Below are positions 10,504 to 28,032 of a stretch of DNA of 64,000 bases, piece after piece. The stretch is from positions 1-64,000 of the forward strand of contig DAHXOT010000003.1 of NCBI GenBank assembly GCA_027364735.1, read 5' to 3'. The stretch's first letter is position 1; each line of letters begins with the position of its first letter. The notes beneath the pieces were generated by a model that did not search any database, was not told the DNA's origin, and saw only the letters and a list, made by a program, of their open reading frames with translations. A program made the translations under genes and the position numbers. The stretch is from Hydrotalea sp. Its GTDB lineage: Bacteria; Bacteroidota; Bacteroidia; Chitinophagales; Chitinophagaceae.

Positions 10504-13500
10504 ATGAATGTTTCCTCTACCCAAAAAGTAAGACTTATTACCGCAGCCAGTTTATTTGACGGACATGATGCAGCTATTAATATTATGCGAAGGGTAATGC
10601 AAAGTAAAGGTGCAGAAATTATTCATCTTGGGCATAATAAAAGTGTTTATGAAATTGTAGAAGCAGCAATTGAAGAAGATGTTAATGGTATTGCCATTAC
10701 CAGTTATCAGGGTGGACATGTAGAATTTTTTAAGTACATGAAAGATTTATTGGATGAAAACGATTGTGGGCATATTAAAATATTTGGTGGCGGTGGTGGT
10801 ACTATTTTGCCCAACGAAATAAACGAATTACACGAATATGGTATTGCCCGAATTTATTCGCCCGACGATGGGAGAAAAATGGGATTAGAAGGAATGATTG
10901 AAGATGTATTGCAACAGTGCCAATTAAATATTGCTGAAAGAACTATTCTTCACAATAAAAACTTGAAAAAGGTTTTGCCCTTAAATAAGGTAAAAGATAT
11001 TCGGAAAATTGCAAGGGCTATTACCTTGGCCGAACAAGGAAAAGAATATCTATCCATTTTTAGTGAGAATAAAAATCATATTTCGCAAAATGAAAATATC
11101 ATTCCGGTGTTGGGTATTACCGGTACAGGCGGTGCAGGTAAATCTTCCGTAACCGATGAAATGGTTCGCCGTTATTTACAATCCTTCCCAGAAAAAACTA
11201 TTGCTATTATTAGTGTAGATCCTTCCCGAAAAAAAACGGGCGGAGCTTTATTAGGAGATAGAATAAGAATGAATGCAATATCGCATCCTCGTTCATATAT
11301 GCGATCTCTTGCCACACGCGATGAAAATACTGCTTTAAGTAAGGCGGTAAAAGATGCGGTTGCAATTTGTAAGCAAATGTTGTTTGATTTAATTATTATA
11401 GAAAGTGCCGGAGTAGGACAAAGTGATGCTGGTATAATAGACCATTGCGATGTTAGTATGTATGTAATGACACCGGAATATGGAGCCGCATCGCAGTTAG
11501 AGAAAATAAATATGTTGGATTATGCCGATATTATTTGTTTAAATAAAATTGATAAAGCCGGCGCATTAGATGCATTAGCAGATATTAAAAAACAATACAA
11601 GCGAAACCATCAATTATTTAATGCAAAAGACGATACACTTCCTATTATTGGCACATGTGCCAATAAATTTAATGATAGTGGAATAAATCATTTGTTTAAA
11701 TTATTAATTGAAAAAATTACGAATAAATGCGGAGTTAATTTTAGTGATAAATTAATCATTACTGCAAGTGTAGATATGGATAAAGCCATAATTCCTGCTA
11801 ATAGAATACGTTATTTAAGTGAAATATCGGAAAGCAACAGATCGTATGATTTATTGGTTCAAGAGCAAGTTGCTATTGCCAGCAAGTTGTATCAACTGAA
11901 TGGTGCATTAGATGTTTTTAAGCAGGAAAATGAACCATCATTTACAGCATCAATTCAACAAAAAATTAATACTTATTTATTACAATTAACACCTGTAGCA
12001 AAAAAATTGATTACCAACTGGCCCGAAAAAGTAAAAGCGTATCAACAGGCATTGTATCAATATAAAGTGCGTGATAAGGTTATTCAGCAAGAAATGTTTA
12101 CTACCAGTTTATCTGGCACAAAAATTCCCAAAGTGGTATTGCCTAAATATAAAGATTGGGGCGATTTATTAAAGTGGCAAGCACAAGAAAATGTTCCCGG
12201 ACATTTTCCATTTACAGCAGGTGTTTTTCCGTTAAAGAGAGAAGGAGAAGATCCTACCAGAATGTTTGCAGGAGAAGGCACTCCCGAACGAACCAATAAA
12301 CGATTTCATTATGTTTCATTAGGACAGCCTGCTATACGTTTAAGTACTGCATTCGATAGTGTTACTTTGTATGGAGAAGATCCTAATGATCGTCCCGATA
12401 TTTTTGGTAAAATTGGAAATAGTGGTGTAAGTATTGCTACAGTAGATGATATTAAAAAATTATACAGCGGATTTGATTTATGTAGTTTTAAAACGTCTGT
12501 TTCAATGACTATTAATGGTCCTGCACCCATTATACTTGCCTTCTTTTTAAATGCAGCTATTGATCAAGAATGTGAAAAATGGATAGAAAAAAACAATCAA
12601 TGGGAGGCAGTAAATAATAACATTAAAGAAAAATTTGTGCATCAAGTTAAGCCTATTTATAACAATCATCTTCCCGAAGGAAATAATGGATTAGGGTTAA
12701 AATTATTAGGCGTAAGCGGCAGCGAAGTATTGCCAGCAGAAATATACCAAAATATAAAAGCAACAACCTTAGCACAAGTTAGAGGTACTGTTCAAGCAGA
12801 TATATTAAAAGAAGATCAGGCACAAAATACTTGTATTTTTTCTACCGAATTTGCCCTAAAATTAATGGGGGATGTACAACAATATTTTATTGATAATAAT
12901 GTTCGAAATTTTTATAGTGTAAGTATTAGCGGCTATCATATTGCCGAGGCGGGGGCTAATCCTATTACACAATTGGCATTTACATTAGCCAATGGATTTA
13001 CTTATATTGAATATTATTTAAGCAGAGGAATGAATATTGACGATTTTGCTCCTAATCTTTCTTTTTTCTTTAGTAATGGTATGGATGCAGAGTATAGTGT
13101 AATTGGCCGAGTAGCGAGAAGAATTTGGGCAAAAGCCATGAAGTATAAATATAAAGCTAACAAGCGAAGCCAAATGCTGAAATATCATATTCAAACATCG
13201 GGTAGAAGTTTGCATGCACAAGAAATTGATTTTAACGATATCCGCACAACGTTGCAGGCTTTATATGCCATTTATGATAATTGTAATTCATTACACACCA
13301 ATGCGTATGATGAGGCAATAACTACACCCACCGAAGAAAGTGTAAGAAGAGCAATGGCCATTCAATTAATTATTAACAGAGAATTGGGAACCGCTAAAAC
13401 AGAAAATTTTATTCAAGGAAGTTTTATAATTGAAGAACTAACCGATTTAGTAGAAGAAGCTGTTTTAACCGAATTTGATAGAATTACAGATAGAGGTGGT

Positions 13501-13881
13501 GTTTTGGGTGCAATGGAACGCATGTACCAGCGAAATAAAATTCAAGAAGAGAGTTTACAATATGAAATGTTGAAACATACCGGCGAATTGCCTATTGTTG
13601 GTGTAAATACTTTTTTAAATAAAAATGGTAGTCCTACTATTATTCCTACCGAAATAATTCGTTCTACACAAGAAGAAAAAGATAGTCAAATACAAAATTT
13701 ACAATCTTTTCATTCACGCAATAAAGAAAAAGCAACCCACTATTTAAAGCAATTACAGCAAGCAGCAATTAACAACGAAAATGTATTTGAGTTATTAATG
13801 GAAACGGTTAAATATTGTTCACTCGGACAAATTACACATGCTTTATACGAGGTTGGTGGGCAGTATCGTAGAAACATGTAA
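10504..13881 (+). CDS. icmF: Fused isobutyryl-CoA mutase IcmF (B12-dependent acyl-CoA mutase with G-protein chaperone)
   Basis: IcmF catalyses the adenosylcobalamin-dependent rearrangement of isobutyryl-CoA to n-butyryl-CoA, and some members act on other branched acyl-CoAs. The 1125-residue chain has the full domain order. The N-terminal B12-binding domain (about 1-140) has the base-off ligand motif D-G-H-D-A-A with His21. A MeaB/MeaI-type GTPase follows, with P-loop [12 protein letters not shown] near residue 204 and NKID near residue 346. The C-terminal mutase TIM barrel includes [16 protein letters not shown] and [16 protein letters not shown], which resemble IcmF rather than methylmalonyl-CoA mutase. 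It is divergent from galM and followed after 22 bases by a secreted hypothetical. True substrate needs active-site alignment. Confidence 0.93.
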
Positions 13882-15772: not shown

Positions 15773-18061
15773 TTATTGAAAAGCATTGCCAATTTTTCTT
15801 TCCATAAGTTTTTCTTTTATTTCATTTAAAATGGAAGGATCATCAATGGTAGATGGAATTGTATATGCTGAACCATCGGCCATTAAACGAATTGTTTTTC
15901 TTAAAATTTTGCCACTTCTTGTTTTGGGTAATCTGTTTACTAAAATCGCATTTTTAAAATAAGCTACGGCTCCAATTTGGTCTCTTACTAATCTAATCAA
16001 TTCATCTTCCAATTCAAATTCATCATTGTGATGACTATCTTTTAGAACCACAAATCCAATAGGTTTTTGTCCACGTAATTCATCTGCAATACCAACTACG
16101 GCACATTCTGCAATAGCCGGATGCCGTGAAATAATTTCTTCCATTTCACCGGTACTTAATCGGTGCCCCGATACATTAATAACATCGTCAATTCTTCCCA
16201 TAATATAGAAGTAGCCATCCTCATCTCTATGTCCGCCATCTCCGGTTAAATAATATCCTGGAAATTGAAAAAGATAAGATTGTTTAAAGCCATCGGGGTT
16301 TTTCCATAAAGTTGGCAAGCATCCGGGAGGTAAGGGTAATTTTACAGCAACAAAGCCTTCTTCTTGGTTGGTAATAATGGTTCCATCATCTTCTAAAATT
16401 TGTACATCAAAACCCGGAATAGGTTTACCTGCACTTCCGGCTTTTGTAGGTAAAGGTTCAATGCCCATCATTATGCCTAACATTGGCCATCCACTTTCTG
16501 TTTGCCACCAATGATCTATTACTGGTTTTTGTAACAAATCGTTTACCCAATGATAGGTTGCGGGATCGCATCGTTCGCCGGCGAGAAACAAAATTTTAAG
16601 CTGCGATAGATCTTTGTTTTTTAGTAATATGCCATCGGGGTCTTCTTTTTTTATGGCACGAATAGCAGTAGGGGCAGTAAACATTGATTTTACTTTGTGT
16701 TCTGCAGCAACCCGCCAAAACTCGCCCGCATTGGGGGTTTTAACAGGTTTTCCTTCGAATAAAACAGTGGTACAGCCTTGTATAAGTGGACCGTATACAA
16801 TATAGCTATGGCCTACAACCCAACCTACATCGCTTGCGGCCCAAAATACATCGCCGGTATCTACATTGTAAATATTTTTCATGCTGTATTTTAGGGCAAC
16901 AGCATAGCCTCCATTATCCCTAACAATGCCTTTTGGTTTACCGGTAGTACCCGATGTATATAAAACATACAGTGGATCTGTAGCATCGAGAGGCGTGTAT
17001 GTGGCAGGACTACTTTTTTGCATTAACTCTTGCATATCTACATCGGTATCATTCAATTCAACTTGCATACCTTCACGCTGAAATAGTATAACATGTTGAG
17101 GTTTGTGATGTGCTTCCATTATGGCATGATCTACCAATGGTTTATAAGCTATTTTTTTATCAATTTCAATTCCGTACGATGCTGTAATAATTGCTTTAGG
17201 TTCGGCATCATCTATTCTTATAGATAATTCGTGTGGGGCAAAACCGCCAAATACTACACTATGTATGGCTCCTATTCTGGCGCAGGCCAACATGGCTATT
17301 ACGGCTTGCGGAATCATAGGCATATAAATTACAACTGTATCTCCCTTGGTTATACCTAATTTTTTTAAGCCACCGGCTAACTGAGCAACTTCGTTACGCA
17401 ATTCGGTAAAATTATATTTACGAATAGTTTTGGTAACCGGCGAATCGTAAATTAAAGCAGTTTGGTTACCACGCCCTTCTTCTATATGATAATCCAAACA
17501 TAAATACGATACGTTTAATTTGCCTCCACTAAACCAGTGGTGTAAATTATCGGCATCTTTGGTTAAAATTGTTTCAGGAAATTCGAACCATTTAATGTTT
17601 TGTGCTTCTTCTTTCCAAAATGCTTGAATATTATCAATACTGCGGCGATATTCGGTTACATAAGCCGGTTTAATTTCACTTTTTGGGCCATCTAATAAAT
17701 CGTGTACCTGCTGCATTAGTAACCTTGTGCTAAAGGGTTTATTAATATATAATTCAGCACCCACTGCATATCCTTTTTTTATATCAGATTCTTTTGTTTT
17801 AGCCGAAATGAATATCACCTTGCAGTGCATATATTCGGGGGTGCGTTTAATATAATCGCATATTGCATATCCATCTACATCGGGCATCATAATATCTAAT
17901 AATACTAAATCGGGGATGTATTGATTAATTGCATTTAATGCTTCAGAACCATTTCGGGCAATCATTACCTGATACCCACTTTTTTTCATTAAAAACTCTA
18001 ATGACATTAAGATGTATGGATCATCATCTACTACTAATACTTTATGTTGGCTATTGTTCAT
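15773..18061 (-). CDS. CheY-like receiver domain fused to PrpE/ACSS3-type short-chain acyl-CoA synthetase
   Basis: A 762-residue two-part protein. Residues 1-123 are a complete receiver: acidic pair D12/D13, phosphoacceptor D56 in LLDIMMPDVDG, switch S86 and K108 in INKPF. After a short linker (124-134) a full AMP-forming acyl-CoA synthetase follows. It has the ACAS N-terminal domain, YTSGTTGKPKG, DHWWQTESGWP, YYLTGDGG and the catalytic, usually acetylatable, lysine K718 in PKTRSGK. ITASYGIE and YKPLVDHAI resemble propionyl-CoA synthetase/ACSS3 more than Acs. It begins 11 bases after the SLC5-STAC histidine kinase stop, so the two are surely co-transcribed and probably partners. The inferred role is activation of propionate or acetate, controlled by phosphorylation of D56. 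There is no DNA-binding output domain and no frameshift at the junction. Confidence 0.95.
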   Translation of the reverse strand: MNNSQHKVLVVDDDPYILMSLEFLMKKSGYQVMIARNGSEALNAINQYIPDLVLLDIMMPDVDGYAICDYIKRTPEYMHCKVIFISAKTKESDIKKGYAVGAELYINKPFSTRLLMQQVHDLLDGPKSEIKPAYVTEYRRSIDNIQAFWKEEAQNIKWFEFPETILTKDADNLHHWFSGGKLNVSYLCLDYHIEEGRGNQTALIYDSPVTKTIRKYNFTELRNEVAQLAGGLKKLGITKGDTVVIYMPMIPQAVIAMLACARIGAIHSVVFGGFAPHELSIRIDDAEPKAIITASYGIEIDKKIAYKPLVDHAIMEAHHKPQHVILFQREGMQVELNDTDVDMQELMQKSSPATYTPLDATDPLYVLYTSGTTGKPKGIVRDNGGYAVALKYSMKNIYNVDTGDVFWAASDVGWVVGHSYIVYGPLIQGCTTVLFEGKPVKTPNAGEFWRVAAEHKVKSMFTAPTAIRAIKKEDPDGILLKNKDLSQLKILFLAGERCDPATYHWVNDLLQKPVIDHWWQTESGWPMLGIMMGIEPLPTKAGSAGKPIPGFDVQILEDDGTIITNQEEGFVAVKLPLPPGCLPTLWKNPDGFKQSYLFQFPGYYLTGDGGHRDEDGYFYIMGRIDDVINVSGHRLSTGEMEEIISRHPAIAECAVVGIADELRGQKPIGFVVLKDSHHNDEFELEDELIRLVRDQIGAVAYFKNAILVNRLPKTRSGKILRKTIRLMADGSAYTIPSTIDDPSILNEIKEKLMERKIGNAFQ

Positions 18062-18072
18062 AGTTGATAATT

Positions 18073-20796
18073 TTATTCGGTAGGATAATTATTATATAAA
18101 GGAATTTCAACAATAAAATTGGCTCCTTTTCCTATTTCGCTTTCTACCCAAATTTTTCCATGATGCATTTCAATAATTCGTTTGCAAATTGCTAATCCTA
18201 ATCCGCTACCTTCCGGTTTTTTAAGGGTTTGATTTTTTGCCTGAAAAAATTTATCGAATATTAATTCATGCACTTCGCTTGCAATACCGGCACCATCATC
18301 TTTTATGCTGAAATGAAAAGTATTTTCTTGCATGCCGGCAGTAATCCAAATATTTTTTCTGGCATGTTTTATTGCGTTGGAAGTAAGGTTATAGAATACC
18401 TGATTTAGTAAATCTTTATCTCCATAGGTTATGGGCAGTTCGGCAGAAATATTTTGAAGAAGTTGTAATTGTTTTTCTTTTAATAGTGGTGTGGCACTTT
18501 CAAAAGTTTCGTTTAATAACAGTGCAAAGTTGATGTTGGTTAAATTAAGTTTTGTTCTTCCGCTTTCATATCTCTCTAAATTTAATACTTGTGTAATTAA
18601 ATGACTTAATCTAACGGTTTCTTTCATAATAGCAGCGAGGTATTGGTTTTTTTGTTCGTTGGGTAAATCGGGGTTATCGTGTACAATTTCGCTTAATGCT
18701 CTTACAGAGGTAAGTGGAGTTCTTAATTCGTGCGTTACAGTATATAAAAATTCATCTTTCATTTCATCCATTTGCTTTAATTGTTCATTGGCTTTTTTAA
18801 GTTCTTCGGTAGCTTTACTTAGTTCTATTGATTTTTTTCGCAACTCTTTATTGGTTTCTTTCATTAACTGACTTTCTCTTAAAATTTTAAGTATTTCATC
18901 AATGCTTAATTCTTCTTCTTTTACAACATTCTTTACCATAATTCTTGCCGAAGCCGAGCCAATAGCACCGGCTAAAATTTTTTCGGCAAAACTTACCATT
19001 GCAGGTTCTGCTTGTCCCGAATCGGATAATTTGATATTTCTTCTACGGGCATAGTTTTGTAAAAGTTGGTTAGTACGTTGTGCCCCGATAAAATTGCTAA
19101 GTAGAGTTTTTAAATCGGGTATATAGGCAGTACCTTTCCAAATAGCAGTTCCTTCGGCAGAAAGTGTAACATGTTTATAAGCATCAACAAACATTTCGGC
19201 CTGATAAATTTCTTGCGATTTGCGTTCGGTGAGTAAGGAAATGGCTATAAAACAAGCTGTATTAAAAAAAATACTCCAAAAGAAACCATGCGTAATAATG
19301 TCTAAACCTTCTAACCCAAATAATGCAGTTGGTCGTAAAAAGGAGAGATGAAATAGACCATTAATATTTAAAGTATTATCTCCAATTCCTGCACCTATAA
19401 TTGAGGGAATTACTAAAGTATAAAACCACATAATAAAGCCAATTATAATACCGCCAACTGCAGCATTTTTATTGGCACGTTTCCAATAAATACCACCAAT
19501 TATTGCCGGAGCAAATTGTGCTACCGCCGTAAATGAAACAAGTCCGATGGATACTAAAGAATATTTTTCGGCTACAGTTCTATCGTATAAATACGCTAAA
19601 AAAATAATAACAACAATACTAATTCTTCGGCTATTAATAATAAATTTTCTGATAGAATTGGTTAGCTTTTCTTTAAACGAATCAACCGATAAAAGCAAAG
19701 GCATTACAATATTGTTACTAATCATGGTGCTTAATGCAATGGTTTCAACAATAATCATACTGCTTGCGGCAGAAAAGCCACCTATATAAACTATTAAAGT
19801 AATTAAGTTTTTGTGTGCATGTAATGGTAATGCTAAAACATAGGTATCGGCATTTATTTTTGTTGATTGGAAATAGATAGTTCCGCCAAAAGCAATGGGT
19901 AACACAAAAATGTTAATGATAAATAAGTACAAGGGAAATAGCCACATGGCTTTATTTAAATGATGTTCTTGCACATTTTCTACCACCGAAACTTGAAATT
20001 GACGTGGTAAAAATAAAACGGCCAACATGGACAATAGCATCATTGCAAATAATTGAACATACATGTTGCTATTTTGGATAACAAATAAGTTTTTTAAAGA
20101 AGGAAGTTGTGATGCTTTATTTACCACATCACTCAATCCGTTAAATAAAAAGTAGGTAACAAAAATACCGGCTACAATAAAAGCAATAATTTTTATAATT
20201 GATTCAAAAGCAATTGCAGCAACCATGCCTTCGTGTTTTTCTGTTGCATCTACATTTCTTGTTCCAAAAAAAATAACAAAAATGGAAAGTCCAATAGCAA
20301 TATATAAAGTAGAATCTCTAATGATATGATAAACTGAAGAGATAGAATGATTGTTTCCGGTTACAATATCAATACTGCTGCTAATAGCTTTTAGCTGAAG
20401 TGCTATATAAGGAATAATGCCAATAACACACAATAAAGTAACAATAATGCCTAATGAAATATTTTTGCCATAACGGGTAGAAATAAAATCGGCGATACTG
20501 GTAATTCGATGCATTTTAGAAATGCGAATAATTTTTCGAAGTATCATCCAAAATAAGGGAGCCATTACAGTAGGACCTAAATAAATATATAAAAATTCTA
20601 TACCCGTAAGTGTGGCTCTTCCAACACTTCCAAAAAAAGTCCAAGCAGTACAATAAACGGCTAAAGATAAAGCATAGATGTATGGATTGTTTATAATGCT
20701 TTTCTGTTGTGATGAACGTAACTCGGCATAGTAGCCTACTCCAAATAAAAGTAAGAGATATAATACAGAACAAATAATGATTAAATAATTATTCAT
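18073..20796 (-). CDS. SLC5-STAC sensor histidine kinase (CbrA/CrbS-like)
   Basis: A 907-residue kinase. Residues about 1-520 form a sodium/solute symporter-like (SLC5) domain with about 12-13 membrane helices. A STAC linker follows (FAEKILAGAIGSASARIMV), then a coiled coil rich in Glu/Lys (about 640-680). The HisKA domain has H689 in V-T-H-E-L-R-T-P-L. A HATPase domain with N (YNLTSNAIKH), G1 (DDGAGI) and G2 (GSGLGLA) boxes ends the chain. Unlike CrbS there is no C-terminal receiver, and no PAS domain is evident. The first codons overlap the upstream small membrane gene by 8 bases, and the receiver-synthetase gene follows after 11 bases. Known relatives govern acetate, histidine or amino-acid use. 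The ligand here is inferred to be a short carboxylate. Confidence 0.94.
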   Translation of the reverse strand: MNNYLIIICSVLYLLLLFGVGYYAELRSSQQKSIINNPYIYALSLAVYCTAWTFFGSVGRATLTGIEFLYIYLGPTVMAPLFWMILRKIIRISKMHRITSIADFISTRYGKNISLGIIVTLLCVIGIIPYIALQLKAISSSIDIVTGNNHSISSVYHIIRDSTLYIAIGLSIFVIFFGTRNVDATEKHEGMVAAIAFESIIKIIAFIVAGIFVTYFLFNGLSDVVNKASQLPSLKNLFVIQNSNMYVQLFAMMLLSMLAVLFLPRQFQVSVVENVQEHHLNKAMWLFPLYLFIINIFVLPIAFGGTIYFQSTKINADTYVLALPLHAHKNLITLIVYIGGFSAASSMIIVETIALSTMISNNIVMPLLLSVDSFKEKLTNSIRKFIINSRRISIVVIIFLAYLYDRTVAEKYSLVSIGLVSFTAVAQFAPAIIGGIYWKRANKNAAVGGIIIGFIMWFYTLVIPSIIGAGIGDNTLNINGLFHLSFLRPTALFGLEGLDIITHGFFWSIFFNTACFIAISLLTERKSQEIYQAEMFVDAYKHVTLSAEGTAIWKGTAYIPDLKTLLSNFIGAQRTNQLLQNYARRRNIKLSDSGQAEPAMVSFAEKILAGAIGSASARIMVKNVVKEEELSIDEILKILRESQLMKETNKELRKKSIELSKATEELKKANEQLKQMDEMKDEFLYTVTHELRTPLTSVRALSEIVHDNPDLPNEQKNQYLAAIMKETVRLSHLITQVLNLERYESGRTKLNLTNINFALLLNETFESATPLLKEKQLQLLQNISAELPITYGDKDLLNQVFYNLTSNAIKHARKNIWITAGMQENTFHFSIKDDGAGIASEVHELIFDKFFQAKNQTLKKPEGSGLGLAICKRIIEMHHGKIWVESEIGKGANFIVEIPLYNNYPTE

Positions 20797-21010
20797 CAGT
20801 TTTTTGTTTTATACTTTTTTTTCTGGTATCAACTACAAAAAATATAAGAACAATAGATAGAAGCCAAACCAAAAAAATATAAAAATACAATTGCGGTATA
20901 CCAAGTATAAAAAAGTAAGTATTTGCCATTTTAATAAAAGGAAAACTAAACAGCATAATAAATAAAATACTGATAAAAAAAAGCTTTTGTTCTTTTAGTT
21001 TCTCTTTCAT
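20789..21010 (-). CDS. Small two-helix membrane protein coupled to the SLC5 kinase
   Basis: A 73-residue protein with two membrane helices (about 10-30 and 38-60) and charged ends. The pattern F-P-F-I-K... I-L-G-I-P-Q-L-Y resembles the small DUF3311-type proteins encoded next to sodium/solute symporters. That assignment is tentative. Its 3' end overlaps the start of the SLC5-STAC kinase by 8 bases, which suggests translational coupling and a role as a small partner subunit of the symporter-like sensor. Confidence 0.75.
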   Translation of the reverse strand: MKEKLKEQKLFFISILFIMLFSFPFIKMANTYFFILGIPQLYFYIFLVWLLSIVLIFFVVDTRKKSIKQKTDE

Positions 21011-21025
21011 AATAGATATAAAAGC

Positions 21026-21066
21026 ATACTACCGGTTAGCAATGAAGTAATGCCAACCAGTAGTAT
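21026..21066 (-). terminator. RNA hairpin between transporter and signalling halves of the operon
   Basis: Arms 21026-21041 and 21051-21066 form a 16-pair stem with a 9-base loop. Two of the pairs are G-U only in the minus-strand transcript; on the plus strand the same positions would be C/A mismatches. This fits an RNA structure in the minus-strand message. The following bases GCTTTTATATC give only a weak T-run, so it may be a partial terminator or a processing/stability element. Confidence 0.6.
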
Positions 21067-21080
21067 TATTAGTGGTAGTG

Positions 21081-21347
21081 TTATAATGGTTTAGCTTCAT
21101 AATCTTCTTCAAGTTCTGCACTTGCTTCGGGAATATGATCGTAATTACCTTCCAGTGCATATAAACCGAATAAGATAAATCCAATTGCAATTGGATAAAA
21201 TACTACTATAAAAACTGCCCATTGAATTTTAGTATCTATAATGGGTTTTTTTGCTATTTCGGCTTGTGCAGTGGCAATTAAATAATGAATGCCAATTGGG
21301 CCAAGTATTATCCATAAAAGTCCTGCATATCTTTTTAATGTATTCAT
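21081..21347 (-). CDS. Small two-helix membrane protein accompanying the MHS transporter
   Basis: An 88-residue protein (ATG 21347; an alternative ATG lies at 21356) with two membrane helices, about 7-25 and 43-65, and an acidic C-terminal tail. It resembles the short, uncharacterised membrane proteins found beside MFS transporters in Bacteroidota (possibly the family called DUF6814; I cannot confirm the name). It lies 20 bases after the MFS stop. A hairpin at 21026-21066 follows it, so it closes the transporter half of the operon. An accessory role for the transporter is inferred from position only. Confidence 0.75.
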   Translation of the reverse strand: MNTLKRYAGLLWIILGPIGIHYLIATAQAEIAKKPIIDTKIQWAVFIVVFYPIAIGFILFGLYALEGNYDHIPEASAELEEDYEAKPL

Positions 21348-21367
21348 AATAATCATTTTTATTGTTG

Positions 21368-22903
21368 TTAAACGGTTACGTCTTCATGTTTTTTATTGCT
21401 GATATATATTGCTCCAATAATCATACATAAGGTAGCAATAATAATCGGATACATTAAGCCTACAGTTTTATTATCGGCATATATAGTAGTGAGTAGTGTT
21501 GCTATAAAAGGCGTTAATCCTCCAAATACACCATTACCAATATGATAGGGTAGCGACATAGAAGTGTATCTTATTTTTGTTGGAAACATTTCTACCAAGA
21601 AAGCGGCAATTGGTCCATATACCATTGTAACATATACAATCATTATCCATACCAAGAATACTATTTTCCAATAATCACCATTACTTAAAACTTTTAAAAT
21701 TGTTACTGCCGGTTTAATTGTTTTTTTACCCTGTGCTGCATATAATGTGTCAATTTTTGTTTCAGTAATTTTCATACCATCTTCGTACATCTTTTTTGTA
21801 ACTACTTTTCTAAGTGTATCGGTTGTATTATTAATTAAAGAAATTTTTGTTGTAATGGCTCTCTTATCGTTCAGTTCTGTTTTTGTTGTAGCATCGGTAG
21901 TGGTAAGAATATTTGTAAATAAATAATTATAAGTAAATACCGCCAAAGCCATTCCTAGCATCATTATCCATTTTCGACCAATTTTATCGCTTAATGAAGC
22001 AAAAACCACAAAGAATGGGGTAGCAAATAAAATAGCCCATATAAGAATTGTACGCGATTGATCAAAATCAACTTTACAAACAGTTTCAATAAAAGATTGA
22101 GCATAAAATTGTCCTGTATACCAAACCACACCTTGCCCCATTGTAGCACCAAAAAGTGCTAATAAAACCATTTTTAAATTTGCTTTGTGACCAAAGCTTT
22201 CTTTTAGTGGATTGATTGATGTTTTTCCTTCTGTTTTTAATTTCGCATACATTGGCGATTCTTTCATCTTTAATCGGATATAGATAGAAATAATTACCAA
22301 TAAAAGAGAAACTAAGAAAGGAATTCTCCATCCCCAATCATTAAATTTAGCAATAGATTTTTCAGGGTCCGAATCCAGACTGTGGCGTACCAATAAAATA
22401 ACGCCAAGCGAAATAAATAATCCTAAGGTTGCAGTAGTTTGAATCCAAGAAGTAAAATAGCCTCTTCTGTTGGCAGGGGCATGTTCGGCTACATAGGTTG
22501 CGGCACCTCCATATTCTCCGCCCAATGCCAAACCCTGAATTAAGCGTAGTAATAATACTATTAAGGGTGCTGCAAATCCCCAACTTTCGTAATTTGGAAT
22601 AAGGCCAATTGCAAACGTCGATCCACCCATTAAAATTAAGGTTAATAAAAAAGTGTATTTACGGCCTACTAAATCGCCTAATCTTCCAAAAACTAAAGCA
22701 CCAAAAGGGCGAACAATAAATCCGGCTGCAAATGTGGCTAAGGTGGATAGTAAGGCTGCTGTAGGATTTCCTTTAGGGAAAAACTGACTGGCAATAACTG
22801 TAGCAAGGCTTCCGAAAATATAAAAATCGTACCATTCAATTAAAGTTCCTAACGATGATGCTCCTATTACTTTCCAGATACCTTTTGTTTCTGAATTATT
22901 CAT
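21368..22903 (-). CDS. MFS transporter of the metabolite:H+ symporter (ShiA/ProP-like) family with an extra loop domain
   Basis: A 511-residue 12-helix carrier. The N-terminal G-T-L-I-E-W-Y-D-F-Y-I-F-G and the loop GRLGDLVGRK are signatures of the MHS family (ProP, ShiA, KgtP), which takes up osmolytes and carboxylates with protons. Between about residues 330 and 410 there is an extra hydrophilic stretch rich in Thr, Lys and Asp that ordinary ~430-residue members lack. ATG 22903 is preferred to ATG 22960, since the family N-terminus begins there and the longer form would overlap the porin gene. Given the neighbouring acyl-CoA synthetases and sensor, a short-chain carboxylate is the likely substrate (inference). 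Confidence 0.9.
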   Translation of the reverse strand: MNNSETKGIWKVIGASSLGTLIEWYDFYIFGSLATVIASQFFPKGNPTAALLSTLATFAAGFIVRPFGALVFGRLGDLVGRKYTFLLTLILMGGSTFAIGLIPNYESWGFAAPLIVLLLRLIQGLALGGEYGGAATYVAEHAPANRRGYFTSWIQTTATLGLFISLGVILLVRHSLDSDPEKSIAKFNDWGWRIPFLVSLLLVIISIYIRLKMKESPMYAKLKTEGKTSINPLKESFGHKANLKMVLLALFGATMGQGVVWYTGQFYAQSFIETVCKVDFDQSRTILIWAILFATPFFVVFASLSDKIGRKWIMMLGMALAVFTYNYLFTNILTTTDATTKTELNDKRAITTKISLINNTTDTLRKVVTKKMYEDGMKITETKIDTLYAAQGKKTIKPAVTILKVLSNGDYWKIVFLVWIMIVYVTMVYGPIAAFLVEMFPTKIRYTSMSLPYHIGNGVFGGLTPFIATLLTTIYADNKTVGLMYPIIIATLCMIIGAIYISNKKHEDVTV

Positions 22904-22937
22904 GTGGCAAGTTTTGGTTGTTATTAAAATTAATATT

Positions 22938-24254
22938 TTAGAAAGAGAAAGTAGATACAAACAATATTCTGGTATTAGTTACACTATTGGTGTTACCGGT
23001 AACTTTTGCATCGGTACCTGCTGTTCCATAAGCTGCCGAAGTAATTTCAATTTCGGTTCCAAACTTAAATTTACCCGATACAATTTCTAATCTGGGTGCA
23101 ATTCTTAATACATTATCAATAGAGGCAGCTTTAGGTGCTACACTTCTGGTATAGGCTACACTGGAAATTGCTCCGGCATCGACAGCTCCATTATTTTTGG
23201 TATATCCAAAAAAGAAACCGGGTACAATGGTTTTTCTGGTACCTGCTACTTCAAACCAATAGGCATTAACACGAATAGGTTTATAAGTAATATTTGGTGC
23301 ATCGCCATAAGCAAGATATCCTCCTATCATTAATTGATCGAATGTATTTTCACCCGAAACAAATTCGCCTTTTACTACTACATCTTTAGTGGTTAATTTA
23401 GCATAGGTTTCAAAAGTAAAGCTGTTTATTTTTTCATTTGTTGATACATAGGTTGAAGCTCCTGGTGCAGATTGTACTTTTAAAGCAGGTAGTAAACTTT
23501 TAAAATCAAATGCTGCTCCCATTAATAACGAATTACTTCTATATTGTACTTGTGCATGCATATTGGGAATAACAGCATTATTAGCATACAATTGGCTTAC
23601 AGCCGGTGCTCCTAAAGCAATATTGGTACTTGAGCCGGAGCTTGAAAATGCTTCTGTTTCAGAAACTGCAGCCAAAATAAGATTAAAGCCACTTCCTAAA
23701 TTTTGCGTTAATCGAATTTGTGGATTACGCGAAAATGGTTGAAATGGAATACCAGTATTAAAGCTTACCACACCAGGGAAACATTCGGTTACAAATAAAG
23801 GATGCCAATATTGCCCAAAAGCTAATTGCGTATTTTTCCAATCTAATTTTGCATAAGCATGACGTAACCGAAATGCATTTTCGTTGCCATTAGCGTTACC
23901 AAAAAATTCGCCCTCGAAAATGCCGGATGTTTTAGCTCCAAATGCATTAGGTCCGGTAATAGTACCTGTTAGGCGAGATGTGATAGAAAGCATAGTAATA
24001 GAAGGAGCGGCATTTATATCGTTTCCATTTACATCATTTGCAACATTGGTAGGGTATAATAATAGCTCTCCTTGATTAGCCGGACGAGCAGAAATAACTT
24101 GTCGTGAATCGTAAAAAACATCGTTTCGTAAAAATCCGGAGAATTTAATTCCCCATGTTGGAGTTTCTGTTTTTTTATCGGCACTTGTGCTTTGTGCATT
24201 TGTTGTTTGATAAATAAAAGCAAATGCAATTAGGGGTAATGCAATTTTTTTCAT
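22938..24254 (-). CDS. Outer-membrane beta-barrel porin (DcaP-like)
   Basis: A 438-residue exported protein. The signal peptide spans residues 1-20 and ends at T-N-A-Q. Repeated amphipathic beta-strands rich in aromatic and Gly residues follow, including W-G-I-K-F-S-G-F-L-R-N-D near the start and F-G-Q-Y-W-H-P near the middle. It ends in ...F-V-S-T-F-S-F, the C-terminal aromatic typical of barrel proteins. DcaP-type porins pass dicarboxylates and other small acids; similarity is by architecture, so the subfamily is uncertain. It starts the transporter arm and is followed after 34 bases by the MHS carrier, giving an outer plus inner membrane uptake route. Confidence 0.85.
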   Translation of the reverse strand: MKKIALPLIAFAFIYQTTNAQSTSADKKTETPTWGIKFSGFLRNDVFYDSRQVISARPANQGELLLYPTNVANDVNGNDINAAPSITMLSITSRLTGTITGPNAFGAKTSGIFEGEFFGNANGNENAFRLRHAYAKLDWKNTQLAFGQYWHPLFVTECFPGVVSFNTGIPFQPFSRNPQIRLTQNLGSGFNLILAAVSETEAFSSSGSSTNIALGAPAVSQLYANNAVIPNMHAQVQYRSNSLLMGAAFDFKSLLPALKVQSAPGASTYVSTNEKINSFTFETYAKLTTKDVVVKGEFVSGENTFDQLMIGGYLAYGDAPNITYKPIRVNAYWFEVAGTRKTIVPGFFFGYTKNNGAVDAGAISSVAYTRSVAPKAASIDNVLRIAPRLEIVSGKFKFGTEIEITSAAYGTAGTDAKVTGNTNSVTNTRILFVSTFSF

Positions 24255-24284
24255 AGCAAGCGTTTTGTTTGATTAATTCTTCAT

Positions 24285-24292
24285 CGAACCTA
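24285..24292 (-). promoter_or_regulatory. Possible -7 element before the porin gene
   Basis: On the minus strand it reads TAGGTTCG, one mismatch from TAnnTTTG, about 31 bases before the porin ATG. It would let the porin-transporter-kinase genes be transcribed without the zinc-ribbon/HTH gene upstream. No clear -33 box is seen. Confidence 0.3.
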
Positions 24293-24382
24293 ATAATATT
24301 CGCTACAAAAATTTGCTTGCATGGTATAGATACGGTAAGTATATAGTTTTTTAGTAAAATAAAAAATCAAAAAGAGCTTATT

Positions 24383-24805
24383 TTATTGGCTTTTTAACCG
24401 CTCCCATTTAATCATCATATATTTATCGCCTAATTCTGTTATCATCATTCCAGAGTTTTTTAAATTCGCTGCATTGGCCATAAATGCTGATAGTTCTGTA
24501 AGAGTAAGTACTTTATACGTTGGATGATAATCATAATTTTCCGGTGCTTTTATTTTATATTTTTTAACCCAGTTTATTACGCTAACGTGGCTAACGCCTA
24601 ATATGCGTTCAATTTCTCTGTAAGTTACTCCTTCAATGTGGAGTTGAAGGGCTTTTATCACATAATAAGGATCAATACTTTTTCCTTCTTTTTCTACTGT
24701 AAAATAATAGCTGCATTTTTTGCAATAGAAACGTTGCCGTTTTTTTACAATACCACTTTTGGTAATTTCGTCGCTTTTGCAGCGAGGGCAAAATTTAATT
24801 TTCAT
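24383..24805 (-). CDS. Zinc-ribbon plus helix-turn-helix protein related to the IS1 InsA N-terminus (probable domesticated regulator)
   Basis: A 140-residue protein. Residues 6-31 form a zinc ribbon with cysteine pairs C6/C9 and C28/C31. A helix-turn-helix follows (about 54-80, Y-R-E-I-E-R-I-L-G-V-S-H-V-S-V-I-N-W-V). The two together match the InsA/IS1-family N-terminal DNA-binding unit. The last 60 residues are not transposase: no DDE catalytic domain is present, and I see no terminal inverted repeats around the gene. It is divergent from acs (117-base gap) and heads the minus-strand porin/transporter/kinase operon. This position suggests a transcriptional regulator of carboxylate use. Function is inferred; only the DNA-binding architecture is visible. 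Confidence 0.8.
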   Translation of the reverse strand: MKIKFCPRCKSDEITKSGIVKKRQRFYCKKCSYYFTVEKEGKSIDPYYVIKALQLHIEGVTYREIERILGVSHVSVINWVKKYKIKAPENYDYHPTYKVLTLTELSAFMANAANLKNSGMMITELGDKYMMIKWERLKSQ

Positions 24806-24813
24806 ACACAGCA

Positions 24814-24841
24814 GAAAGTTAGTTATATACTAAATTAGCAA
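24814..24841 (-). promoter_or_regulatory. Putative promoter of the zinc-ribbon/HTH gene
   Basis: On the minus strand TTG (24839-24841) is followed after 17 bases by TAACTTTC (24814-24821), one mismatch from TAnnTTTG. The transcript would start almost at ATG 24805. One copy of the direct repeat TAAATTAGCA (24831-24840) covers the upstream part of this promoter. Confidence 0.4.
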
Positions 24842-24859
24842 TAATATATTAAATTAGCA
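24831..24859. repeat. Direct repeat in the acs/regulator divergent region (possible operator)
   Basis: The 10-mer TAAATTAGCA occurs at 24831-24840 and again at 24850-24859, with a 19-base period, about two helical turns. It lies between the divergent acs and zinc-ribbon/HTH genes and one copy overlaps the latter's putative promoter. A dimeric regulator site is plausible, but chance occurrence in AT-rich DNA is possible. Confidence 0.4.
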
Positions 24860-24922: not shown

Positions 24923-26869
24923 ATGATTGCCATGTCTTACCCATATCAAATTAAAAGCTACGAGCAGTACCAAAAAGAGTATCAACGCAGTATTGAAGAT
25001 CCTGCTGATTTTTGGAGCGAGATTGCCCAAAATTTTACTTGGAAAAAAAAGTGGCATACTACCCTAAATTGGAACTTTAAAGAACCCAAGGTTGAATGGT
25101 TTAAAGGTGCTAAGCTGAATATAACAGAAAATTGTTTGGACCGATTTCTTGAAAAAAGTGGCGATATCCCTGCAATAATTTGGGAACCAAATGACCCTGA
25201 AGAACATCATCGCATACTTACGTATAAAAAATTATACGAAAAAGTTTGCCAATTTGCGCATGTATTAAAAAATAATGGAATAAAAAAAGGTGATAGAGTT
25301 TGCATTTATATGGGAATGATTCCTGAATTGGCTATTGCTGTTTTGGCATGTGCAAGAATTGGAGCAATTCATTCTGTAATTTTTGGTGGATTTTCTGCTC
25401 AAAGCATATCAGATAGGTTATTTGATGCCCAAGCAGAATTTATAGTTACTTGCGATGGTGCGTATCGAGGGCAAAAAGATATTCCGCTTAAAAGCGTTAT
25501 TGATGATGCACTTATTGGCAATAGAACTGTAAAAAAAGTAATTGTTTCAACACGTACCAGAACTGCAGTTTCTATGATTAAGGGTAGAGATGTTTGGTGG
25601 GAAGATGAAATTAAAAAGGTTGAAACAATGGGGGTAACAGATTTTCCGGCAGAAAAAATGGATGCAGAGGACCCTTTATTTATTTTATATACTTCGGGTT
25701 CTACCGGCAAACCTAAAGGGGTAGTACATAGTTGCGCAGGTTATATGATTTATTCCAATTATACTTTTATTAATGTATTTCAATATCAACCGGGCGATAT
25801 TCATTTTTGTACTGCCGATATTGGTTGGATTACAGGGCATAGCTATATTTTATATGGCCCATTAAGTGCCGGTGCTACAACTTTAATGTTCGAAGGGGTT
25901 CCCACTTGGCCCGATGCCGGCAGATTTTGGGATATTGTTGATAAGTACAGGGTAAATATTTTATATACAGCACCAACCGCTATTAGAAGCTTAATGGGAT
26001 TTGGTTTAGGCCCGGTTCATGGCCACGATTTAAGTAGTTTGAAAGTATTAGGTACAGTAGGTGAGCCTATTAATGAGGAAGCATGGCATTGGTACAACGA
26101 GCATATCGGAAAGAAAAAATGTCCTATTGTTGATACATGGTGGCAAACAGAAACAGGTGGTATTTTAATTTCTAATCTAGCAGGTATAACTCCTGCAAAA
26201 GCCAGTTGGGCTACACTTCCATTGCCAGGCGTACAACCAATTTTGGTAGATGATCAAGGCCATGAAATTATAGAAAAAGAAGATGGATTATATAAAGGAA
26301 ATCTTTGTATAAAACACCCTTGGCCAGCTACTATCCGAACTACTTATGGCGATCATGAAAGATGCCGAACTAACTATTTTGCTACTTACGAGAATTTATA
26401 TTTTACTGGAGATGGGGCACTAAAAGATGAGAATGGATTTTATAGAATTACAGGTCGTGTAGATGATGTATTGAATGTTAGTGGGCATAGAATTGGAACC
26501 GCCGAAGTTGAAAACGCTATTAATATGCATTCGGGTGTGGTAGAAAGTGCTGTAGTTGGGTATCCGCACGATATAAAAGGGCAAGGTATCTACGCCTATG
26601 TTATTTATCAAGGCTCTCATCAGCAAAATTCTCATGGCACTGCCGATTTAATTAGAAAAGATATTTTACAAACTGTAACAAGAATTATAGGTCCAATTGC
26701 TAAGCCTGATAAGATTCAGTTTGTAAGTGGATTGCCTAAAACAAGAAGTGGAAAAATTATGCGTAGAATTTTACGTAAAATAGCTGAAGGTGAAATTGAT
26801 AATTTAGGCGATACAACTACCTTACTCGATCCGAATGTTGTGGATGAAATTAAAAATGGGAAACTATAA
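24923..26869 (+). CDS. acs: Acetyl-CoA synthetase (Acs)
   Basis: Acs converts acetate, ATP and CoA to acetyl-CoA through acetyl-AMP in the cytoplasm. The 648-residue protein has the ACAS N-terminal domain, YTSGSTGKPKG, the acetate-pocket motif V-D-T-W-W-Q-T-E-T-G-G and YFTGDGA. The C-terminal PKTRSGKIMRR carries the conserved lysine (K611) that is acetylated by Pat-type enzymes in other bacteria. ATG 24923 or 24932 may be used. It is divergent from the zinc-ribbon/HTH gene, and the receiver-fused second synthetase lies 7 kb away in the same locus. The D-T-W-W-Q-T-E-T-G-G pocket identifies this copy as the true acetate enzyme. Confidence 0.97.
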   Translation: MIAMSYPYQIKSYEQYQKEYQRSIEDPADFWSEIAQNFTWKKKWHTTLNWNFKEPKVEWFKGAKLNITENCLDRFLEKSGDIPAIIWEPNDPEEHHRILTYKKLYEKVCQFAHVLKNNGIKKGDRVCIYMGMIPELAIAVLACARIGAIHSVIFGGFSAQSISDRLFDAQAEFIVTCDGAYRGQKDIPLKSVIDDALIGNRTVKKVIVSTRTRTAVSMIKGRDVWWEDEIKKVETMGVTDFPAEKMDAEDPLFILYTSGSTGKPKGVVHSCAGYMIYSNYTFINVFQYQPGDIHFCTADIGWITGHSYILYGPLSAGATTLMFEGVPTWPDAGRFWDIVDKYRVNILYTAPTAIRSLMGFGLGPVHGHDLSSLKVLGTVGEPINEEAWHWYNEHIGKKKCPIVDTWWQTETGGILISNLAGITPAKASWATLPLPGVQPILVDDQGHEIIEKEDGLYKGNLCIKHPWPATIRTTYGDHERCRTNYFATYENLYFTGDGALKDENGFYRITGRVDDVLNVSGHRIGTAEVENAINMHSGVVESAVVGYPHDIKGQGIYAYVIYQGSHQQNSHGTADLIRKDILQTVTRIIGPIAKPDKIQFVSGLPKTRSGKIMRRILRKIAEGEIDNLGDTTTLLDPNVVDEIKNGKL

Positions 26870-26958: not shown

Positions 26959-28032
26959 ATGGATAATGGAAAATATAAAATTGTTCAAATTATAGATACA
27001 CTTGAGCCGGGTGGTGCAGAACGAGTGTTAATTACCATAGCAAATATTTTATTTTCGAAAGGGCATCAGGTTGCAGTAATTACTACTTTGCATGAAGGGA
27101 AATTGGCTAATGAACTTTGCGAAGGAATAACACTGAAGGTATTAAACAGAAAATCGAAATGGAATTTAGCGGATATGAAAAAATTAATTGAATGGTGTCA
27201 ATCATTCGATATTATTCATGTTCATTCTACCCATAATTTGCGTTATCTTTTTCTAGCTTCAATCATTTTTGGATTACATAAAAAAATATTTTTCCATCAT
27301 CATTTTGGAAATATTGAAATAGATCAATCTGTTAAATGGACTGAAAAATGGATTTTGCCTAAAACAATTGTTATTGCAGTATCGAGAAAAATTTATGAAT
27401 GGACGATTGATAAAATAAAAATGAATAAACAGCATGTTTATTTACTTCCCAATATTATGCAAAAGCAATTATCGGGTTTTGGGTTGCATCAACAATCAAG
27501 CGAATTGCAAATAGTTTTGGTTGCTAATTTTAGAGCTGCAAAAAATATTGAGTTTGCGGTTGATTTAATGCATCAACTAATTCAACAACAAAAAGCACAT
27601 TTAACTATTGTAGGTCAAGTTGCCGATGAAAATTATTGTAATAATATTCAATCGAAAATTGAAGAACTATCCTTAACCAATTATATTACCATTGTGCATA
27701 ATTGCACCAACGTTAGTGCAATGTTACATCAGTTCGATTTAGCCATTCATACTGCCACTTCGGAAAGTGGGCCATTGGTTTTAATTGAATATATGGCAGC
27801 CGGTTTACCTTTTCTTACATACAAAACAGGCGAAGTTGTGTATCAAATAGAAAATGATTTAAGCGAATGTATTATTGATGAATTTGAAATAAGTGCTTGG
27901 ATACGTCAAATTAATCGTTTGCTGCAAATTAATAGAGATGAATTTTGTAATAAATTGCAACATGAATACACAAGCTTATATTCGGAAGATGCCTATTATA
28001 AAGCATTAATAGCCATTTATTCAACCATCTAA
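26959..28032 (+). CDS. Glycosyltransferase family 4 protein
   Basis: A 357-residue GT-B glycosyltransferase. The N-terminal D-T-L-E-P-G-G-A-E-R-V motif is the typical acceptor-side loop. The C-terminal Rossmann domain has VANFRAAKN and the E-S-G-P-L-V-L-I-E-Y-M-A-A-G-L-P segment, which corresponds to the EX7E nucleotide-sugar site of GT4 enzymes. It has no membrane segments. It stands alone between acs and the convergent OPT transporter, so no polysaccharide cluster helps to define the sugar or acceptor. Confidence 0.88.
   Translation: MDNGKYKIVQIIDTLEPGGAERVLITIANILFSKGHQVAVITTLHEGKLANELCEGITLKVLNRKSKWNLADMKKLIEWCQSFDIIHVHSTHNLRYLFLASIIFGLHKKIFFHHHFGNIEIDQSVKWTEKWILPKTIVIAVSRKIYEWTIDKIKMNKQHVYLLPNIMQKQLSGFGLHQQSSELQIVLVANFRAAKNIEFAVDLMHQLIQQQKAHLTIVGQVADENYCNNIQSKIEELSLTNYITIVHNCTNVSAMLHQFDLAIHTATSESGPLVLIEYMAAGLPFLTYKTGEVVYQIENDLSECIIDEFEISAWIRQINRLLQINRDEFCNKLQHEYTSLYSEDAYYKALIAIYSTI

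Follow-up and report, generated by a model that had tools for sequence, protein, structure and literature searches.

An SLC5-STAC kinase operon of Bacteroidota with a predicted zinc-ribbon regulator, a candidate tandem operator and, in one sub-clade, a receiver joined to a propionate-CoA-ligase-like enzyme

The stretch of DNA analysed here, called the window, comprises 64,000 nucleotides of Hydrotalea sp. (contig DAHXOT010000003.1) and carries an operon built around an SLC5-STAC histidine kinase, which joins a carrier-like SLC5 part to a kinase part. An earlier note on this DNA had read the genes for uptake, sensing and activation of a carboxylate as one operon with a DNA-binding protein at its head. 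We confirmed that all the genes named there are present on the minus strand and that the operon is real and conserved, its gene order recurring across families of the class (Bacteroidia). The comparison of gene order in other Bacteroidota genomes that the note had proposed was carried out, and the neighbouring genes were found to be kept together, an outcome in favour of its reading, which as a whole is borne out in part. The receiver-ligase gene, which had been placed within 18073-24805, sits outside that interval at 18061-15773. In the following list, coordinates are those of the whole stretch, and all features lie on the minus strand except acs.

24826..24859, minus strand: candidate operator, a tandem direct repeat in the intergenic region between HTHzn and acs, 20 bases ahead of the start codon of HTHzn
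24383..24805, minus strand: HTHzn, 140 amino acids, predicted local regulator (zinc-ribbon and helix-turn-helix (HTH) profiles, alignments, co-occurrence)
22938..24254, minus strand: putative outer-membrane porin, 438 amino acids (position, length, signal-peptide appearance, terminal F)
21368..22903, minus strand: MFS carrier of the metabolite/H+ symporter type, 511 amino acids (Pfam Sugar_tr/MFS_1; NCBIfam TIGR00883)
21081..21356, minus strand: DUF6814 small membrane protein, 91 amino acids (Pfam PF20664, E 5e-25)
20789..21010, minus strand: DUF3311-like hydrophobic protein of 73 amino acids in the position of CbrX, with an 8-base overlap with the kinase start
18073..20796, minus strand: SLC5-STAC-HisKA-HATPase histidine kinase (transceptor), 907 amino acids (Pfam, PDB 10ED)
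15773..18061, minus strand: receiver (Asp56), short linker and propionate-CoA-ligase-like enzyme, 762 amino acids (Pfam, NCBIfam)
24923..26869, plus strand: acs, divergent acetyl-CoA synthetase (NCBIfam Ac_CoA_lig_AcsA, over the cut-off)

The SLC5/SSS part of the kinase matches residues 10-451 of CbrA (PDB 10ED) with an E value of 1.7e-67, the Pfam SSF match being 21.3 bits, just below the cut-off of 22.8, and both HisKA and HATPase_c are over their Pfam cut-offs. No Pfam family fitted the STAC segment; searched as a profile of 27 sequences, its top match among 177,635 sequences was the STAC domain of CbrA (10ED, residues 475-590; E 8.5e-4). Kinases of 800 amino acids or fewer were omitted from the residue counts and from the kinase tree described below, from which identical kinases were removed as well. 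The phospho-acceptor H689 is kept in 68/68 of the longer kinases, and so is K202, which, counted along the alignment, corresponds to K196 of CbrA, the lysine that fills the Na2 site of that protein (PMC13022988). The Pfam scan of the window kinase bore out the statement that it lacks a C-terminal receiver, and no PAS domain was matched between STAC and DHp up to E 0.1. The other kinases of the class have 835-958 amino acids, except L128 (1136 amino acids, with a receiver). This protein, from genome G533 of the same family, is a CrbS-type hybrid SLC5-STAC kinase in an unrelated neighbourhood, with a 211-amino-acid receiver-containing protein encoded nearby. Among the 11 proteins scanned between 13904 and 30118 of the window (excluding 26959-28032), we found neither a LuxR-type nor a CbrB-type (REC-AAA-HTH) regulator; the claim that no DNA-binding response regulator stands beside the kinase thus holds for this neighbourhood, the genome beyond it not having been searched. 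A further receiver gene occurs near the operon in five loci of the class (L091, L094, L109, L110 and L114).

HTHzn, the protein encoded at the head of the operon, is composed of an InsA-like zinc ribbon, an HTH and a conserved C-terminal alpha/beta segment of ~45 residues, as judged from alignments. Its Pfam matches to Zn_ribbon_InsA and HTH are weak and below the cut-offs, and its zinc domain is over the NCBIfam IS1/IS1595 cut-off. A fold search with a model built from 7 sequences (mean predicted local distance difference test (pLDDT) of 81) gave a best E value of 0.024, and its top matches, which were Lrp/AsnC-like, had TM values of ~0.25, which we do not take as evidence. Defining orthologues by E<1e-40 among 395 genomes of the class, we found HTHzn in 30, the kinase in 30 and both in 28 (Fisher p 3e-38, with shared ancestry ignored), the kinase-only genomes being G141 and G261. 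The next-best HTHzn match after the orthologues had an E value of 8e-26, and at E<0.001 HTHzn-like matches were present in 49/395 genomes. Genome-wide searches confirmed the absence of HTHzn from the four genomes with the kinase and without HTHzn, and six of seven further kinase genomes checked in the same manner hold HTHzn, the remaining one being G562 (72% complete). We mapped 69 loci including that of the window, of which 65 remained after identical kinase sequences had been removed. Full loci, whose flanks reach 7 kb or more upstream and 2.5 kb or more downstream, number 53; the flanks of the other 12 are too short. On the same strand, 44 full loci have HTHzn upstream; 3 have it at another place in the stretch, and 6 lack it (L078, L079, L084, L093, L128 and L129). 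It is on another contig for L078 and L079, and the genomes of the other four do not have it. Even in G180, G240 and G173, where HTHzn and the kinase are on different contigs, the two still co-occur, and the unlinked HTHzn gene heads a gene for ~475 amino acids in the porin slot and an MFS gene, followed by DUF6814 where the contig reaches that far. The DNA-binding protein claimed for the head of the operon therefore appears to be more than a bystander, considering its presence in 28 of the 30 kinase genomes of the class and the conserved tandem site.

This site consists of two direct copies of TGCTAAnnnnnTATA with a 19-bp period, upstream of both HTHzn and the divergent acs, close to the start codon of HTHzn and 63-72 bases from acs, for which conservation favours an in-frame start at 24932. 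We scanned the loci with up to 3 of 20 fixed positions changed and used 50 Markov-shuffled sets as a control, leaving out L014 with its broken HTHzn reading frame. The tandem pair was found in 48/51 loci, always with exactly the 19-bp period, as compared with a mean of 0.1 and a maximum of 1 in the controls; in L077, one of the remaining loci, a pair occupies the gap that separates HTHzn from the gene following it. A whole-genome scan of 60 genomes, allowing up to 2 mismatches, detected the tandem in 46/48 genomes with both HTHzn and the kinase, as a single site in 42 of these 46. There was none in the 2 HTHzn-only genomes, in the 4 genomes with the kinase and without HTHzn (including G533 with its CrbS-type kinase) or in the 6 with neither orthologue, of which G002 encodes a protein distantly related to HTHzn (E 1.5e-20). 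Across the 60 genomes, 2 matches were obtained with the reversed pattern. Ahead of HTHzn in the HTHzn-only genome G242 is a variant pair whose period is 20 bp. In the 2.77-Mb window genome, the site has 0 mismatches and is the sole match at up to 3 mismatches, where the backward-read control also gave 1. In G180, G240 and G173 the site accompanies HTHzn, whereas the stretches around the kinase yielded none. This whole-genome distribution indicates that the tandem site goes with HTHzn, which accordingly looks like a local regulator with the site as its candidate operator. The indication of a possible reverse-orientation second site before the porin gene is weak (11/51 at up to 5 mismatches, against a control mean of 2.9 and maximum of 6). 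One genome has a second perfect tandem on a contig other than that of the operon (G611:C22:195354-195387), possibly a further target of HTHzn.

Directly after the kinase, a receiver is encoded in 64/65 unique loci, with L128 as the exception. It is a separate gene of ~121 amino acids in 49 of them and fused to an enzyme in 15, and the acceptor Asp and the Lys are kept in the alignment of receivers. The fused protein of the window begins 11 bases past the kinase stop and contains Response_reg, ACAS_N and AMP-binding according to Pfam, with a linker that the alignment puts at about ten residues; the AMP-binding motifs look intact by eye. The earlier note had stated that the only receiver is on the enzyme, which holds true for the sub-clade of the window but not elsewhere, and because the receiver is a separate gene in 49/65 unique loci, the module is not defined by the receiver-enzyme. 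On a tree of 64 kinases (midpoint root, support 92, unstarred, L124 on a long branch), the fused state needs one change, and all non-fused loci have a free receiver, bar L128. The fusion thus fits one origin. The receiver-ligase is accordingly best regarded as derived, a late offshoot of a module of kinase and free receiver, and its alternative reading as the ancestral design, which we considered, is not supported by this tree. A comparison for the origin of the free receiver as a detached CrbS receiver was uninformative, the five best matches to the L128 receiver being 29-32% identical.

Of the full loci, 34 have a PrpE-like enzyme and 8 an Acs-like one as the first enzyme, free or fused, in the 900 bases that follow the kinase; 11 have none there. 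After removal of identical receivers, residues K27 and S86 (window numbering) were found in 67/68 and 65/68 distinct receiver sequences from loci of the class, fused receivers included. Q and T occupy positions 27 and 86 in all 14 receivers from L084, L093, L129 and other classes, none of which has HTHzn. The fused receivers carry the K27/S86 pair typical of class loci with HTHzn, which is suggestive of a link between receiver and HTHzn. Two loci of one genus, L095 and L170, have a single frame of 1286 and 1288 amino acids, respectively, in the ligase slot; that of L095 matches the acetyl-CoA synthetase profile twice, possibly representing a fusion of two ligases in both loci.

The best NCBIfam models for the fused enzyme are PRK10524 (748 bits) and TIGR02316 (705 bits), below the equivalog cut-offs of 955 and 827, respectively, and we describe the enzyme as PrpE-like, that is, resembling propionate-CoA ligase. 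Propionate and acetate are likely substrates. The window genome also encodes a methylmalonyl-CoA-mutase protein and an isocitrate-lyase-family protein, the usual onward routes, which speaks for a fatty-acid uptake system. Only ~2 kb from the operon, at 10504-13881 on the plus strand, lies a gene for an IcmF-like protein of 1125 amino acids with fused B12-binding, MeaB and methylmalonyl-CoA-mutase parts, a possible link to branched or short-chain acids.

The arrangement to which we give about an even chance is a local fatty-acid uptake system in which the transceptor kinase signals to the receiver and the receiver probably to HTHzn acting on the tandem site. The porin and the carrier would import a short-chain fatty acid (propionate and/or acetate), and the PrpE-like and Acs enzymes would trap it as acyl-CoA. 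The SLC5 part of the kinase would read the substrate, and its kinase part would phosphorylate the receiver encoded next to it, usually a free single-domain protein and, in the clade of the window, tethered to the PrpE-like enzyme. The output would be a "split response regulator", with the receiver signalling to the separate HTHzn, which would bind the tandem repeat of 19-bp spacing and set the expression of the operon by either activation or repression. This proposal builds on what comparison of sequences has shown, namely the gene order, the phospho-acceptor residues, the co-occurrence of HTHzn and kinase, the pairing of HTHzn with its site and a fusion compatible with one origin. The presence of an acyl-CoA synthetase directly after or fused to the receiver in 42/53 full loci is also in its favour. 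It is rather doubtful, though conceivable, that in the fused form one protein is both enzyme and regulator, the kinase phosphorylating the synthetase via the fused receiver, which would also contact HTHzn. If so, a metabolic enzyme would serve as response regulator for the very uptake operon that encodes it, coupling substrate activation with gene control.

Several observations weigh against this proposal. HTHzn occurs without the kinase in G242 and G422, and kinase and receiver occur without an HTHzn orthologue in G141, G261 and G036, so neither HTHzn nor the kinase depends strictly on the other, and the receiver may act on something else. The two HTHzn-only genomes have no tandem at up to 2 mismatches, nor was one found near HTHzn of G422 at up to 4. 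No synthetase follows the receiver directly in 11/53 full loci, and the K27/S86 signature is confounded with phylogeny, which could explain it on its own. The kinase was found in 41/395 genomes drawn from the phylum. Among 20 further loci, the operon with HTHzn and the tandem recurs in the 8 of the class, whereas the 12 of other classes contain the kinase and a protein like that of 73 amino acids, with no HTHzn and no tandem. In a genome-wide search of 13 other-class genomes no HTHzn orthologue was found, with weak matches in G711 and G800 (E ~1e-5). A receiver follows the kinase in 11 of these 12 loci, and the gene after it varies among the loci scanned: a PAS protein in L154, a weak-HisKA protein in L163, a 717-amino-acid protein with an exonuclease domain in L157 and L165 (with a weak PAS match in L165) and proteins without a Pfam match in L159 and L160. 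From these varied next genes, the constant core seems to be transceptor, small protein and receiver, while the output changes. The genes after the receiver in L154-L165 could be alternative outputs.

The fusion itself raises the possibility, which we regard as rather unlikely, that the phosphorylated receiver switches or localises PrpE and so matches trapping to uptake, with HTHzn as an independent local autoregulator that perhaps senses a metabolite through its C-terminal part. Of the alternatives, this one comes nearest to the view taken in the earlier note. Such enzyme control agrees with receiver and PrpE forming one polypeptide in 15/64 unique loci with a receiver, with the 42 full loci in which the synthetase adjoins or is fused to the receiver, and with HTHzn and kinase-receiver each occurring without the other. 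However, the receiver is separate in 49 loci, 11 full loci lack a synthetase directly after it, and the fusion, which fits one origin and joins genes adjacent elsewhere, may represent a stop codon whose loss was tolerated. Neither did the AlphaFold model of receiver-PrpE provide a reliable docking (mean pLDDT 65, with residues 126-135 of the linker below 50). Improbable in our view is a role of the receiver as a phosphate sink or relay that drains or passes on phosphoryl groups, the output being a second kinase or a DNA-binding regulator encoded elsewhere, comparable to CrbR in the case of CrbS. The PAS protein of L154 and the weak-HisKA protein of L163, as well as the CrbS-type hybrid and the 211-amino-acid receiver-containing protein in the same family (L128, G533), would fit this role, but the neighbourhood of the window kinase has no DNA-binding response regulator (unlinked partners were not searched for), and HTHzn co-occurs instead. 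Most improbable of all is that HTHzn is a transposon remnant or an unrelated neighbour. InsA is the DNA-binding protein of the IS1 transposon, whose sites are terminal and inverted, and HTHzn shares its N-terminal zinc ribbon and HTH, matching the NCBIfam IS1 transposase at 77 bits over profile positions 1-112 of 199 (cut-off 100). Unlike InsA, HTHzn has the extra conserved C-terminal segment and is paired with putative tandem direct sites, and no transposase partner was seen; its 140 amino acids leave no room for a transposase catalytic domain. Moreover, each carrier genome has one strong HTHzn match, the protein is strongly conserved, and it stays with the operon and the tandem site across families. 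With the IS1 model below its cut-off and one strong match per genome, we rejected HTHzn as an IS1 copy.

An enzyme-type response regulator is familiar from PorX of Bacteroidota, in which a receiver is joined to a phosphatase-like domain. The fused protein of the window likewise combines a receiver with an enzyme-like output, but the enzyme is an acyl-CoA synthetase and the pathway is another one. CrbS/CrbR of Vibrio and Pseudomonas (PMC5715377) resembles our operon in that an SLC5-STAC kinase is linked to the uptake of acetate and to acetyl-CoA synthetase. In CrbS a receiver forms the C-terminal part, and its partner CrbR is of the LuxR type, whereas the receiver here is separate or fused to an enzyme, and the operon adds an InsA-like DNA-binding protein, a porin and a carrier. 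CbrA (PMC13022988) has a PAS domain, a sigma-54-type partner CbrB, a response to histidine and the small ORF (open reading frame) CbrX overlapping the kinase start. The homologous SLC5-STAC part, the Na2-site lysine and the overlapping small ORF are shared with the window, whereas the PAS domain and a CbrB-type regulator were not seen in or around its kinase. The gene content is thus unlike that of CrbS/R and CbrA/B, as the earlier note had maintained, with no C-terminal receiver, PAS domain, LuxR-type or CbrB-type regulator found. RpuS/RpuR of Sinorhizobium, which responds to pyruvate (PMC9100948), likewise has an SLC5-STAC kinase, with a symporter and a small DUF3311 protein as neighbours; the kinase is described there as a hybrid with a LuxR-type regulator, and a porin, HTHzn and a CoA ligase are absent from the genes named in the figure legend.

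The module represents an SLC5-STAC two-component system wired in a new way. The systems in the cited papers are proteobacterial, with hybrid kinases or conventional regulators, whereas this wide Bacteroidota branch is wired otherwise, with a free receiver and, in one class, a regulator family with its own putative operator. HTHzn, on which the earlier note touched only briefly, appears together with its candidate operator to be the most solid new element, and the receiver-ligase, a probably derived fusion, the most striking one. Our searches of open-licence papers returned no description of HTHzn or of the module. With the site delimited to 34 bp, a single regulator and, in most genomes, a single copy of the site, the role of the single-domain receiver becomes directly testable, and the fusion, compatible with one event, offers a natural experiment on what receivers act on.

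The gene for the 73-amino-acid protein is directly upstream of the kinase in 60/65 unique loci, and its ORF overlaps that of the kinase in 53 of these 60 (ORFs taken from the furthest start). It thus has the position and overlap of CbrX, but a PDB sequence search revealed no detectable homology to any solved chain, and a DUF3311 match was obtained in 6 of 26 members. The putative porin has no Pfam match above the cut-off. The ORF of the MFS carrier opens at a TTG at 22960, and the protein scores 364 bits with TIGR00883, below the cut-off of 443. The slot that it occupies is filled differently among the full loci: 35 have an MFS carrier with DUF6814, 2 an MFS carrier without it and 11 an SSS symporter. 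The remaining 5 show neither carrier on the same strand upstream; of these, L094 and L129 have a carrier nearby in another place or direction. The SSS symporter replaces the MFS-DUF6814 pair in L073, L075, L084 and others, and in both loci scanned for it, L129 and L084, the SSS carrier is accompanied by DUF4212 as its small neighbour. Because MFS carriers come with DUF6814 in some loci and SSS carriers, where scanned, with DUF4212 in others, carriers of different families appear to replace one another in this slot, each bringing along a small membrane protein that goes with its carrier family.

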